Below, piece by piece: positions 33,553 to 59,003 of a stretch of 64,000 nucleotides of DNA. The notes under the pieces were generated by a model. It saw only the letters and a list, made by a program, of their open reading frames with translations. It was not told the DNA's origin and did not search any database. The DNA comes from Agrococcus lahaulensis DSM 17612 (GTDB lineage: Bacteria > Actinomycetota > Actinomycetes > Actinomycetales > Microbacteriaceae). Location: the NCBI RefSeq assembly GCF_000425105.1, contig NZ_AULD01000005.1, positions 62,001 through 126,000 of the forward strand, given 5' to 3'. Position 1 is the first letter of the stretch. Each line of letters opens with the position of its first letter. A program made the translations under genes and the position numbers.

Positions 33553-33637
33553 GGCGAGTTACCCAAGCGGCCAAAGGGATCTGACTGTAAATCAGCTGGC
33601 AATGCCTTCGGGGGTTCGAATCCCTCACTCGCCACCA
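33553..33637 (+). tRNA. tRNA-Tyr (GTA)
   Basis: Class II tRNA with a long variable arm (GCTGGCAATGCCTTCGG): acceptor GGCGAGT/ACTCGCC, anticodon GTA between ATCTGACT and AAATCAG, T-arm GGGGGTTCGAATCCCTC. It is the only tRNA here with an encoded 3' CCA. Sits 128 bp upstream of the yajQ insertion site, but no copy of its 3' end is found on the far side of the island. Confidence 0.97.
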
Positions 33638-33752: not shown

Positions 33753-33758
33753 TAGGAT
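33753..33758 (+). promoter_or_regulatory. original yajQ -10 box, now separated from yajQ
   Basis: TAGGAT, six bases, then ATG at 33765. The codons that follow spell the usual beginning of YajQ proteins, so this is the ancestral leaderless yajQ promoter cut off by the insertion. Confidence 0.7.
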
Positions 33759-33764
33759 CGGGGC

Positions 33765-33800
33765 ATGGCAGATTCCTCGTTCGATGTAGTCGACTACTAA
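33765..33800 (+). pseudogene. yajQ 5' fragment left by insertion
   Basis: An 11-codon frame MADSSFDVVDY then TAA. MADSSFDVV is the common start of YajQ proteins and parallels [13 protein letters not shown] of the intact gene at 36348. Homology ends in the 12-bp direct repeat 33776-33787, after which the sequence belongs to the island. Confidence 0.8.
33776..33787 (+). repeat. left direct repeat (att-like) of the yajQ island
   Basis: CTCGTTCGATGT, identical to 36362-36373; followed by A-GTC here and G-GTC at the right copy. Next to it is a perfect 12-bp palindrome GTAGTCGACTAC (33786-33797), a plausible recombinase-binding feature. Confidence 0.7.
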
Positions 33801-33846
33801 CGGTCGACTTTCAGAGCGCCCCGAGTCCCGCCGTTCGCGAGGCCGC

Positions 33847-33996
33847 TTACCTCAACCAGCCGAACCACTCGGCGACAAGCCACGCCAGGGACACCATCGT
33901 GACAAACACCAAAGTCGCTGTGGTCCAGCTATCCCGCCGTCGCATTGATGAAAGCTGTTCCGGCGTCGGTTCTTCGTCGTCAGCGTCGTCGACCAT
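33847..33996 (-). CDS. small single-pass membrane protein, island cargo
   Basis: 49 residues, not recognised. The N-terminal half is acidic then basic (MVDDADDEEPTPEQLSSMRR) and the C-terminal half is one helix rich in Trp (TATLVFVTMVSLAWLVAEWF). This acidic-tail-plus-helix plan is sensible for a real protein and differs from out-of-frame noise. A longer reading in another frame over the same DNA (33852-34106) looks like noise. It might be a membrane anchor, toxin or antitoxin of the island system; that is inference. Confidence 0.5.
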   Translation of the reverse strand: MVDDADDEEPTPEQLSSMRRRDSWTTATLVFVTMVSLAWLVAEWFGWLR

Positions 33997-34426
33997 GTGC
34001 TGTCCGTCCGGGCCCACTTAGCGCCATTCAGACGCGAGCGCGACTCGTTGCCATCGCCGCAGCCGACGCGCTGCGACGCGAGATGCGTCAGCGTGTCGCG
34101 CTGCACGGGTCATGACGATCCCCCATCGCGTTTCCGCACAGTGTTGCACGATGTGCTGCCATCGAGCGGCTCCGGGTTAAGGAAGGCCTCCCGGATCGCG
34201 CGGAAGCCGATCGGCCTGCTCCTGGTCGAGAAGGTCAGCAGCCCGCTGCAATCCTGGGTTGACGCGACTGAGTTCGAGGTGGGCGGCGTCCGCGCCCAGC
34301 AGCCGGAGGCGAGTCGCAACCTCGCGGCGGCGCTCAGCGCCGTCGCTTGTACGCGCTGAAGTCAACGACGAGGCGAGAGAGGTCAAGTCTCTGCTCGACC
34401 ATGCTGAGCTTGAGCACAGCACGGCG
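33997..34426. other. unresolved 430-bp stretch inside the island
   Basis: Several frames stay open but none is convincing. On the plus strand 34180-34359 reads RKPIGLLLVEKVSSPLQSW... with G/C in most third positions and ends at a stop just before the next gene's frame; on the minus strand 34177-34422 reads REVATRLRLLGADAAHLEL. No start with a ribosome site or -10 box is clear for either. It may hold a decayed gene or the N-terminal part of the following gene displaced by a frameshift. Confidence 0.4.
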
Positions 34427-34711
34427 ATGGAGTTCAGCGCCGGTGCCGAGCTGTGGCTCGAAGCCGTGACCGCGGTTGGTGCGGCAGGCGGTCTAGCCGG
34501 ACTTGCCGCGGTGATTCACTCGATCACACATCGCCATTCCGCGAAGCGGTTCGAACTGAAGCTGGGCGGACTTACGGTGCAAGCCGACGGCTACTCGGCT
34601 AGCAAGGTACAAGAGCTACTCAACGGTGCGCTATCTGATCAAGCCAGGGTCGATTCCGAGTGGTCGAAGATGATCGACGACTCCCGCGATCCGGAAGAGC
34701 CAACCGAGTAG
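34427..34711 (+). CDS. small protein resembling conflict-system component EACC1, island cargo
   Basis: 94 residues from ATG 34427: an acidic start, a glycine-rich hydrophobic helix (AVTAVGAAGGLAGLAAVI, about 14-31), a basic turn HSITHRHSAKRF, a beta-like ELKLGGLTVQADGYS segment, a helix and an acidic tail. The order (G-rich helix, basic turn, strand with G.TVQ) recalls EACC1, a small domain found with NTPase-driven conflict systems of actinobacteria; this is pattern memory, not a database result. The frame stays protein-like for about 26 codons upstream without a clear start, so the true N-terminus may be longer. Converges on the NTPase gene. Confidence 0.5.
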   Translation: MEFSAGAELWLEAVTAVGAAGGLAGLAAVIHSITHRHSAKRFELKLGGLTVQADGYSASKVQELLNGALSDQARVDSEWSKMIDDSRDPEEPTE

Positions 34712-34724
34712 CGCCTGCCTGGGA

Positions 34725-36212
34725 CTACTCGCCTGCGCCAACCCAACCCATCGCTCGGGCGTAGTTCTTTAGCTTGTTCAAGCAGTACTGCGCCACAGTC
34801 GAGCGATTTGCGGTACCGAGGAAGTCGCCCTTGCGATACGTGAACTCCAGGCAGTGGACGCGCGAGGAGTCGTCCACGCCAACATCCGGGATCAAAGTGG
34901 GCAAGAAGGAGAGCGCGGTCTCTGTCGTAATGTCCACGTCGTTGCCCACGACGCCGCTCTCCCGGATGGCGTCACCGAATGCTCGATTGAGATCCTTGTC
35001 GCGTCCCCCCTGGAATCCAATGTTCTCGCCGACGGCGGCGAACGTGACGCGAGCTTCCTCTGCCGGATTACCGCGGCCCTCGCCGACGGCCCGCACCTCC
35101 CCCGCCAGTCGTCGACCAAGGTCGCTGCGAAGCATGTAGGAGGTGACGTCTGCCCGGCTTCTTGTCGCGTAACCGAGATCGCCAAGCGCTGTCTTGTACG
35201 CCGGAAGGGTGCTGTAGCGCGACATCGTTGCTAGGGCGAGAGGCGGCGCAACTGCGACCACGTGCGCGTCCAAGGCCACGATCGTCTGGACCAAAAGCCC
35301 CCGGTGCGCCGCCCACCACTGACCGATGACGCTGTCCGCGCAGGCTTGCACGAGCGCTACCCCGTCAAGCATTCCAAACCGGCGACTGGACGAGAGAGTG
35401 CTGAGGACTCCGTGACCCTGAGATTCAGTGACCCACACGATGCTGAGCCGCACATCTCTCACGGTTGCGCGTGCGAGTTGCAGCTTGCGCGCATTGAAAT
35501 CGATCGCGATCTGCTTCAGGAAATCACCAAGCGAGGCGAACTGACCTGGTTCGTACTGATCAAGGTCGACCAAGTGCTCGAGCGAGTCCACACCGTTCGC
35601 GAGCACGAGCGTCTGCGCTGCGAGATCCGCCCAAGAGTCGACGCCGGGCCCAGAGACTTCAACGGGGATAGCCAAAGGCAGCACCCCGGCGACCTCGCGA
35701 TACGAGTCAGCCATGGACTGCGCAATCGCTCGAGAGGTCTCGGGCCAGATCAGTAGTACGCGGGACCCTTCGTCCTGTCTGAGGAAGCGCTTGATCTGGG
35801 CCAGCTCGACCTCGGAAGGAGGAGCGCCCTCGCGATGGTCAACGTTCATCGGGATGACGCGCGCGTCGTCAGCAGGCAGCACATCGCGCTCATGGGTCTT
35901 CAGTGCCGCGATCAAACTAGCCGAGTCCACGGAGCCCGAATAAGACAGAGTCGGCGCGAATGTGCGGGACGCGAAGAGCGTGAGATTCTCGGCAAGCGTC
36001 GTCTTGCCGGTCCCAGACTTCGCGAAGATGGGGAGAAAAACTCCCTCGCCGAGTGAACCGACCGCCTCAGCAGCCTCTTCCAACACTTCCATCGTCGATG
36101 AGGCGGGGTTGACGAGAAGCCTCAGGACCTCGGGGCCCACCTTCCTCACCAGCGCCTCATAGCGCGACGGCAGTGTCAGTCCGGTGAGGAGGCGATCATC
36201 TTCTTGAGCCAC
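34725..36212 (-). CDS. P-loop NTPase of unknown family, island cargo
   Basis: 495 residues. Walker A is PIFAKSGTGKTTLAENL (Lys70, Thr71); RVLLIWPET (151-159) is the probable Walker B strand, ending in a Glu after Trp-Pro; an SIVWVTESQ strand near 280 could be sensor 1. The last 45 residues form a separate-looking block: HCLEFTYRKGD (453-463) then RSTVAQYCLNKLKNYARAMGW. I do not recognise the family. Codons have far more A/T in third positions than neighbours. GTG 36212 is chosen because TACTGT lies six bases upstream; an in-frame ATG at 36227 is the alternative. Adjacent to yajQ and divergent from it. A defence or STAND-like role is inference. Confidence 0.75.
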   Translation of the reverse strand: MAQEDDRLLTGLTLPSRYEALVRKVGPEVLRLLVNPASSTMEVLEEAAEAVGSLGEGVFLPIFAKSGTGKTTLAENLTLFASRTFAPTLSYSGSVDSASLIAALKTHERDVLPADDARVIPMNVDHREGAPPSEVELAQIKRFLRQDEGSRVLLIWPETSRAIAQSMADSYREVAGVLPLAIPVEVSGPGVDSWADLAAQTLVLANGVDSLEHLVDLDQYEPGQFASLGDFLKQIAIDFNARKLQLARATVRDVRLSIVWVTESQGHGVLSTLSSSRRFGMLDGVALVQACADSVIGQWWAAHRGLLVQTIVALDAHVVAVAPPLALATMSRYSTLPAYKTALGDLGYATRSRADVTSYMLRSDLGRRLAGEVRAVGEGRGNPAEEARVTFAAVGENIGFQGGRDKDLNRAFGDAIRESGVVGNDVDITTETALSFLPTLIPDVGVDDSSRVHCLEFTYRKGDFLGTANRSTVAQYCLNKLKNYARAMGWVGAGE

Positions 36213-36218
36213 ACCCAG

Positions 36219-36224
36219 ACAGTA
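36219..36224 (-). promoter_or_regulatory. -10 box for leaderless island NTPase gene
   Basis: TACTGT six bases before the GTG at 36212 on the minus strand; same geometry as host leaderless genes, suggesting the island is adapted to this type of host. Confidence 0.5.
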
Positions 36225-36335
36225 CATCCGCGATCCGGGCCATCCGCGCACGCCTCCGCGGGCTCTTGACTCCGCCGCGCCGACGCGCGCTCGTCCTCGT
36301 CGAAGGCGAAGAGCAGGATCGGAGCGACGGCCGCG

Positions 36336-36341
36336 TAACCT
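36336..36341 (+). promoter_or_regulatory. replacement yajQ -10 box supplied by the island
   Basis: TAACCT, six bases, ATG at 36348. It has the same spacing as the stranded native box at 33753 (TAGGAT-N6-ATG) but unrelated surrounding sequence. Confidence 0.65.
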
Positions 36342-36347
36342 GTTGTC

Positions 36348-36839
36348 ATGCCCAGTGACAGCTCGTTCGATGTGGTCAGCAAGGTCGACAAGATGGAGGC
36401 CGAGAACGCCGTCAACCAGGCGCGCAAGGAGGTCGAGCAGCGCTACGACTTCAAGGGCGTCGGCGCCGACGTCGCGTGGAGCGGCGAGAAGCTGCTGCTC
36501 AAGGCGTCGAGCGAGGAGCGCGTGAAGGCCGTGCTCGACGTCGTGCAGTCGAAGTTCATCAAGCGCGGCATCGACCTCAAGATGCTCGACCAGGGCGAGC
36601 CGTACGCCTCGGGCAAGGAGTACCGGATCGAGATCTCGCTCAAGGACGGCATCTCGAGCGAGAACGCGAAGAAGGTGACGAAGCTCATCCGCGACGAGGG
36701 CCCCAAGAGCGTCAAGGCGCAGATCCAGGGCGACGAGGTGCGCGTGACCTCGAAGAGCCGCGACGACCTGCAGGAGACGATCCGGCTGCTCAAGGCCGGC
36801 GACTTCGACATTGACCTGCAGTTCGTCAACTTCCGCTGA
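36348..36839 (+). CDS. yajQ: YajQ family nucleotide-binding protein (DUF520)
   Basis: 163 residues, full family length: [32 protein letters not shown] at the N-terminus, [24 protein letters not shown], and the C-terminal [17 protein letters not shown]. YajQ folds as two RRM-like domains and binds nucleotides; a Xanthomonas homologue binds cyclic di-GMP. The first residues MPSD come from the inserted island; the native start MAD is stranded at 33765. Despite this the protein is intact. Confidence 0.95.
36362..36373 (+). repeat. right direct repeat (att-like) of the yajQ island
   Basis: CTCGTTCGATGT inside codons 5-9 of intact yajQ; matches 33776-33787 exactly, 2586 bp away. Confidence 0.7.
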
Positions 36840-57906: not shown

Positions 57907-58875
57907 GTGGACCTCGCCCTCGAGCGGCTCGCCGACCGCATGCATGTCGTCTCGCTGCCGCTCGCGACGCGCTTCCGCGGCGTCGAGGTGCGGGAGGCTG
58001 CGCTCTTCTCGGGGCCCGCGGGCTGGGGCGAGTGGAGCCCGTTCCTCGAGTACGAGCCCGAGGAGGCCGCGCGGTGGCTGCGCGCCGCGCTCGAGGACGC
58101 AGGTAGCGAGCGGCCCGCCCCCGTGCGCGAGAAGGTCCCGGTGAACGCGACGCTGCCGGCGGTCGCGCCCGACGCGGTCGCGGGCGTGCTCGCGCGCTAC
58201 GACCGCTGCCGCACGGTGAAGGTCAAGGTCGCCGAGCGCGGCCAGGTGCTCGCCGACGACGTCGCCCGCGTCGCCGAGGTGCGGGCGCTGCTGCCCGACG
58301 TGCGCATCCGGCTCGACGCGAACGGCGGCTGGAACCTCGACGAGGCGGAGTCGGCGATCCGGGCGCTCGAGCGCTTCGACCTCGAGTACGTCGAGCAGCC
58401 GTGCGCGACGGTGTCCGAGCTCGCCGAGCTGCGCTCGCGCGTGCGGAAGCTCGACATCCCGATCGCGGCCGACGAGTCGGTGCGGAAGGCGGAGGACCCG
58501 CTGCTCGTCGCGCGGGCCGGCGCCGCCGACGTCGTCGTCGTGAAGGCGCAGCCGCTCGGCGGCATCCGCGCGGCGCTCGAGATCGTCGCCGAGGCGGGGC
58601 TGCCGGCCGTCGTCTCCTCGGCCCTCGACACCTCCGTGGGCCTCTCGATGGGCGCGGGACTCGCGGGCGCGCTGCCCGAGCTGCCCTTCGACTGCGGGCT
58701 CGGCACCGGCGCGCTGCTCGCGGCCGACGTCGCGGTGCCGCTCGTGCCGGCGGCCGGCGCGATCCCGGTCGGCCGAGTCTCGCCCGACCCGGCGCTGCTC
58801 GAGGCGCACGCCGCGCCGCCCGAGCGAGTCGAGCACTGGCGGGCGCGGCTCGCGGCGGCGCTCCCCCACCTCTGA
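57907..58875 (+). CDS. menC: o-succinylbenzoate synthase
   Basis: 322 residues, enolase superfamily. Catalytic lysine in TVKVKV, metal ligands in RLDANGGWN, VEQP and AADESV, and the second lysine in VVVKAQPLGG. It dehydrates SHCHC to OSB. Start: GTG 57907, six bases after GAGCAT; the ATG eight bases earlier is out of frame. The only men gene of this half on the plus strand. Confidence 0.94.
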   Translation: MDLALERLADRMHVVSLPLATRFRGVEVREAALFSGPAGWGEWSPFLEYEPEEAARWLRAALEDAGSERPAPVREKVPVNATLPAVAPDAVAGVLARYDRCRTVKVKVAERGQVLADDVARVAEVRALLPDVRIRLDANGGWNLDEAESAIRALERFDLEYVEQPCATVSELAELRSRVRKLDIPIAADESVRKAEDPLLVARAGAADVVVVKAQPLGGIRAALEIVAEAGLPAVVSSALDTSVGLSMGAGLAGALPELPFDCGLGTGALLAADVAVPLVPAAGAIPVGRVSPDPALLEAHAAPPERVEHWRARLAAALPHL

Positions 58876-59003
58876 GGGGCGGGGCCCGGCCCTCCATGCC
58901 GCGAGCAGCGGCGATCCGGCGGATCGGTCGCGAGGAGCGGTCGCATCGCGCTGCCGTCGCGCGGATCACCGCCGCTCGCGACGGCGCCGCCCCGAGCGGA
59001 GGC

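Follow-up and report, generated by a model that had tools for sequence, protein, structure and literature searches.

The window analysed here, the whole 64,000-nucleotide stretch of contig NZ_AULD01000005.1 from Agrococcus lahaulensis DSM 17612, contains the gene yajQ, and we found that this gene is split after a 7-bp core, TTCGATG, by an insert of 2,586 bp. Inserts stand at the same base of yajQ in three Agrococcus species, represented by G000, which is our label for the genome of the window, G016, and A. baldri NBRC 103055 (G019); other G and L numbers denote compared genomes and loci. Empty alleles occur beside occupied ones, the junctions are exact, and A. baldri carries a tandem array. 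We consider it likely that these inserts belong to a family of small, non-autonomous, mostly single-gene cassettes that dock at the yajQ start, with the recombinase acting in trans. The features at the site in G000 are as follows.

33553-33637, plus strand: tRNA-Tyr, chromosomal, upstream of the site (ARAGORN and Rfam)
33753-33767, plus strand: TAGGAT-N6-ATG, the leaderless start signal native to yajQ, left behind at the insert's left edge (TAGGAT 33753-33758, ATG 33765)
33765-33800, plus strand: orphan yajQ 5' fragment MADSSFDVVDY followed by TAA (33798-33800)
33780-33786, plus strand: left core copy TTCGATG (attL)
33787-36372, no strand: inserted cassette, 2586 bp
33799-33808, plus strand: left-end motif AACGGTCGAC, 12 nt past the core, possible recombinase-binding arm
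36336-36350, plus strand: replacement start signal TAACCT-N6-ATG on the cassette right end (TAACCT 36336-36341, ATG 36348)
36348-36839, plus strand: yajQ (DUF520), intact, initial codons cassette-derived (PF04461, E=3.5e-61)
36366-36372, plus strand: right core copy TTCGATG (attR)

The two core copies delimit the crossover zone. The initial annotation had placed an island at 33753-36380, inserted into the 5' end of yajQ and rebuilding the gene with its own promoter and start. Insertion and replacement were borne out, with an unbroken yajQ in 21 of the 24 Agrococcus genomes inspected, two more carriers interrupted at the same base and an array of three units, and the borders became 33787-36372 when the end of the core was taken as the border. 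The 12-bp repeat it had described, CTCGTTCGATGT, is present twice, at both edges, in copies 2,586 bp apart, and the segment is lower in GC (guanine plus cytosine) as it had claimed, at 63.4%, where the 5-kb flanks have 72.4% and 70.9%. The 11-codon fragment at the left edge does match yajQ, its first 22 nucleotides being identical to those of yajQ in many empty genomes, and the start at the right edge reads MPSDSSFD in frame into intact yajQ. A sigma-70 promoter and terminator scan of the G000 insert gave no matches.

To define the empty allele, yajQ was inspected in 24 Agrococcus genomes. The start was uninterrupted in 21 of these and displaced in three (G000, G016, and G019). Among the uninterrupted alleles, 18 read MADSSFDVV directly into SKVD, as had been predicted for an empty site, two read MAVSSFDIV into SKVD (MAVSSFDIVSKV), and one read MESSFDIE into SKVD (MESSFDIESKV); since all 21 read directly into yajQ, the predicted empty allele is real. 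Both G020 and G022, close relatives (YajQ identity 98 and 97%), were empty. TAGGAT-N6-ATG preceded yajQ in 14 of the 21 empty genomes, and the more general form TANNNT-N6-ATG was found at 22 of 25 yajQ loci (the 24 Agrococcus genomes plus one of another genus), the exceptions being G021, G023, and G009. This geometry does occur at both junctions of the insert, as noted at the outset, but as the norm of the lineage it reflects the host start signal and does not set the island apart. A tRNA-Tyr gene lay 96 to 1165 bp upstream of yajQ at 15 of the 21 empty loci, those with tRNA-Tyr inside the fetched flank, and the interval contained other DNA in G012 and G004. In G004 (L195) about 1.8 kb separated tRNA-Tyr from yajQ, with no displaced yajQ start in the interval; a near-match 4.4 kb away in the same genome was rejected, being in the opposite orientation with no visible start signal.

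The other two carriers contained shorter units. G016 had a single unit of 758 bp and A. baldri had three in a row, of 999, 913 and 768 bp, giving with the 2586-bp insert of G000 five units in all, every one in the same orientation and ending in a yajQ promoter and start; the initial annotation had suggested a search for other cargos between a yajQ 5' fragment and yajQ, and these are such cargos. TTCGATG was present at both G016 boundaries and at three of the four in A. baldri, the remaining one being TTCGACG. All four A. baldri boundaries carried a yajQ-type promoter and start: the native start was leftmost, and at each of the three further boundaries a yajQ-type promoter with its ATG and initial codons ran up to TTCGATG or TTCGACG, after which the next unit's left end, or yajQ, followed immediately. 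Such a pattern is expected if a single site is regenerated and used again and again. In the start that closes A. baldri unit 1 and has ceased to drive yajQ, the spacing is one base shorter, and the yajQ-proximal start retains TANNNT-N6-ATG in all three carriers; however, the native starts left behind at the left edges are intact as well.

The cassette ends shared further features. The motif AACGGTCGAC was found exactly 12 nt past the core in four of the five units, and this 10-mer occurred 8 times in 3,097,434 base-strands of comparison DNA, the copies in the window and in A. baldri included; it is a possible recombinase-binding arm. The right ends of the G016 unit and of A. baldri units 1 and 3 were 85-89% identical over 54-69 bp, A. 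baldri unit 2 instead ended in a near-copy of the native yajQ start, and the G000 right end was of yet another type. In G001 (L033:19240-19331) there was no insert, yet the yajQ promoter resembled the cassette right end (86%, query positions 3-80); it is perhaps the remnant of a lost cassette. The yajQ of Microbacterium paraoxydans (L136) starts MANDSSFD, like cassette right ends, and most of 80 named yajQ loci lack the extra residue; no displaced yajQ start copy was present upstream in M. paraoxydans and no insert was visible.

We propose that the cassettes would insert at TTCGATG, which lies over codons 6-8 of yajQ. Each cassette would consist of a left end, usually with AACGGTCGAC 12 nt inside, a cargo whose main gene runs counter to yajQ, and a right end that provides ATG and initial codons behind a yajQ-type promoter. 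Integration would strand the native yajQ start at the left, place the cassette start on yajQ, and regenerate the site, so that further cassettes could stack in tandem. The recombinase would be supplied in trans and not by the cassettes. We infer that a site-specific recombinase was responsible for the insertions; the cassettes may still be mobile, and the promoters they carry are, from their sequence, presumably functional for yajQ.

A tree of yajQ and downstream DNA (25 rows) placed G000 and G016 as sisters (99/94), in a supported group with two more members, G022 and G020, both empty, and placed A. baldri elsewhere. As the G000 and G016 inserts are unrelated except for the left-end motif, we concluded that at least two lineages acquired cassettes. 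In a wider sample, 25 of 398 genomes gave matches, of which all except those in G000 and G016 were attributed to chance on the basis of sequence (A. baldri was outside this sample); extra matches in G235 and G267 were located on other contigs.

The main ORFs (open reading frames) of the cassettes run opposite to yajQ. Those of the G000 insert are as follows.

33847-34017, minus strand: possible small ORF, 56 amino acids, no confident family
34177-34422, minus strand: ORF of 81 amino acids, matches DUF2732 below the cut-off
34259-34711, plus strand (that of yajQ): ORF of 150 amino acids, no confident family
34725-36212, minus strand: main cargo, P-loop protein of 495 amino acids from GTG, Walker A SGTGKTT, AAA_22 below the cut-off

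The P-loop protein matched no family above the cut-off in profile scans, a PDB sequence search with its alignment gave no match up to E=1, and its structure model was poor (predicted local distance difference test, pLDDT, 34). It was matched in four of 299 genomes of the family: G000 itself, G304 (62% identity, from another genus), and two with weak partial matches. The G304 relative (L182:7606-9096) is a lone gene at a different locus, flanked, by eye, by two LLM-class oxidoreductase-like genes. The G016 unit and A. baldri unit 3 carry a homologous gene for a 191-amino-acid protein (51-54% amino acid identity), indicating that the same cassette type is present in separate lineages. The model of this protein (pLDDT 58) found no PDB match at E<=0.001, and the protein had matches in 15 of the 299 genomes, many of them weak, G016's own copy being counted and one relative lying on another contig of G000. 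Relatives of the gene (G000:C2:59081-59608 and G016:C1:283206-283637) are both, by eye, beside a uppS-like gene, and because they adjoin this gene in both genomes, the host chromosome may have been the source of cassette cargo. The proteins encoded by A. baldri units 1 and 2 had no recognised family in the scans. The G000 insert and A. baldri unit 1 have in common a 132-bp stretch (76% nucleotide identity) within the region of the 81-amino-acid ORF, which a 105-amino-acid ORF of that unit (L032:2417-2734) resembles; the DUF2732 matches of both small ORFs were below the cut-off (E 0.04 and 0.14). PADLOC gave no defence system match for any of nine cassette ORFs tested, and a role of the cargo in defence is a guess. 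Elsewhere in the window, ARAGORN predicted a selenocysteine tRNA at 58813-58909.

Among the scanned cassette ORFs of all carriers, no recombinase family was recognised. The only PF00589 proteins of G000 were XerD (342 bits, cut-off 330) and an XerC-type protein (312 bits, cut-off 335), and there was no PF00239 match; no integron integrase was found in this genome, both PF00589 proteins scoring best as Xer and reaching 139 and 103 bits with integron-integrase models, for which the cut-off is 265. G016 and A. baldri had further PF00589 proteins, plus one PF00239 match each. With a pattern search, one dif-like site per genome was found in 24 of 24 Agrococcus genomes, none of them at yajQ, and this site (CCGATAATGCACATTATGTCGG in G000) is unlike the TTCGATG core; XerCD acting at dif was rejected as the mover on this ground. 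An integrase about 1.5 kb upstream of yajQ in G012, with which the A. baldri non-Xer integrase gave a 30% match, was also rejected as a source: there tRNA-Tyr lies 168 kb away from yajQ, which has a single start within three mismatches. As 19 of 20 nucleotides of the tRNA-Tyr 3' end and flank are repeated about 195 bp before yajQ in G012 (L037:8989-9008, L181:2490-2572), the tRNA-Tyr lies so far off, and the yajQ start is single, this genome probably has a large element or a stack of elements in tRNA-Tyr, separate from the yajQ cassettes. For the cassettes, this leaves a recombinase that acts in trans, one that has since been lost, or one from a family outside those scanned.

Several observations weigh against a family of mobile cassettes, foremost the missing recombinase and the low number of carriers. 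The recombinase was not found, and one non-Xer tyrosine recombinase pair from G016 and A. baldri, compared as a candidate shared integrase, was just 27% identical. G000 and G016 are sister genomes, leaving just two well-separated carrier lineages, and among 80 named yajQ loci (14 with less than 10 kb upstream) no cassette was seen outside Agrococcus, only A. baldri having displaced starts. No attP-bearing phage or plasmid was found, and neither ends nor cargo gave a convincing match in IMG/VR, INPHARED, phages, or plasmids: matches of the ends were short and weak (E from 0.004 to 0.6), one in IMG/VR (L169) was rejected as chance-like with no yajQ start seen there, and a YajQ query found similar stretches in six phage records, at 33-64% identity, starting at residue 16-17. 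The units themselves are not uniform; the left end of A. baldri unit 3 lacks AACGGTCGAC (6 of 10 positions agree by eye), the conserved right-end type is absent from G000 and from A. baldri unit 2, and the G000 unit, which exceeds the others in length and has an additional ORF on the opposite strand, may be fused or altered.

That the units are deletion remnants of a larger integrative element at yajQ (a phage, an integrative and conjugative element, ICE, or an integrative and mobilizable element, IME) whose integrase was lost, we regard as unlikely. Loss would predict the lack of a non-Xer PF00589 protein in G000, integrase-bearing elements do use 5'-end sites, in dusA and prfC, and the small ORF shared between carriers weakly matches DUF2732. 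Remnants, however, would not be expected to keep the core and the yajQ start at both borders of five units, to stand three in a row with clean junctions, or to recur in sizes of 758-999 bp; the 24 Agrococcus genomes showed no larger element that had displaced the yajQ start, and phage, plasmid, and viral searches gave no convincing match for the ends.

We think it quite improbable that yajQ is a hotspot of allele exchange through homologous or illegitimate recombination with no site-specific recombinase, as this would leave unexplained the tandem units, the use of one junction by unrelated inserts, and the left-end motif at a constant distance, even though every unit contains yajQ 5' homology, the end of A. 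baldri unit 2 is nearly identical to the native start, and the interval between tRNA-Tyr and yajQ is variable and in G012 and G004 holds other DNA. Homologous recombination could, nonetheless, spread existing inserts between strains. Minimal phage-dependent satellites using the integrase of a helper phage would also be small, non-autonomous, and site-specific with cargo of no assigned function, but genes for packaging or replication were not recognised (E=0.022 for the best PHROG match) and the cassette ends gave short weak matches only in IMG/VR and INPHARED, so that we give this origin very little weight.

The cassettes can be compared with known systems. Staphylococcal cassette chromosome (SCC) elements form cassette arrays at one gene, rlmH, some of them without a recombinase, and are much larger, use the 3' end of the gene, and depend on ccr serine recombinases. 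The yajQ units resemble them in forming arrays at one gene and differ in size, in the end of the gene used, and in the ccr recombinases. Integron cassettes are small and mostly single-gene, have no recombinase of their own, and are arrayed at one site. The tandem array of three small gene units in A. baldri has this same character, the likeness lying in small recombinase-less units arrayed at one site (PMC1382264). Unlike integrons, G000 has no integron integrase that we could find, each yajQ unit brings a promoter for the target gene, and the junctions read TTCGATG, in which no GTTRRRY-type attC core was apparent by eye. For the Xer/pdif gene modules of Acinetobacter, movement by a recombinase in trans has been suggested (PMC7399989, PMC12907356); the yajQ core differs in being unlike the host dif-like site and in lying in a protein gene. 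Replacement of promoter and N-terminus is already known from dusA-specific elements such as IMEVchUSA3 (PMC4482086); these elements are larger, with their own integrase and, in the Vibrio ones, a directionality factor, whereas the yajQ units are 0.76-2.6 kb, have none recognised, and occur in tandem. The SXT/R391 ICEs are inserted site-specifically by a tyrosine recombinase in the 5' end of prfC (PMC2791158); they too use the 5' end of a protein gene, but are large and conjugative, carry int, and have another target gene. As at dusA and prfC, the yajQ inserts lie in the 5' coding end with empty sites in relatives and, as read from the DNA, would provide yajQ with another promoter and start and with in-frame initial codons; no integrase of their own was found among the scanned cargo ORFs.

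Among the open-licence papers listed by our searches we found no description of yajQ as an attachment site, nor, going by titles and opening lines of abstracts, of comparable cassettes. The initial remark that no described element uses yajQ in this way agrees with these searches; replacement of promoter and start is already displayed by dusA islands, and what is new is an array of small integrase-less cassettes on a protein gene, and the unusual part, beyond what the initial annotation had seen, is that small cassettes without a recognised recombinase stack in tandem. A broader proposal, which we offer tentatively and consider rather doubtful, is that these cassettes constitute a gene-capture system analogous but unrelated to integrons, in which a conserved gene start serves as the docking site, each cassette brings its own copy of that start, and a recombinase in trans adds tandem units while yajQ is never lost. 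The TTCGATG core gives a defined handle for seeking the recombinase, and the arrangement of an orphan 5' fragment, cargo, and a new start provides a search rule that may reveal hidden cassette arrays at other genes. If our reading is correct, there would be a further route, besides integrons and Xer modules, for stacking tiny genes at a fixed site, and a conserved protein gene could be a safe target for an element that brings along a spare start.

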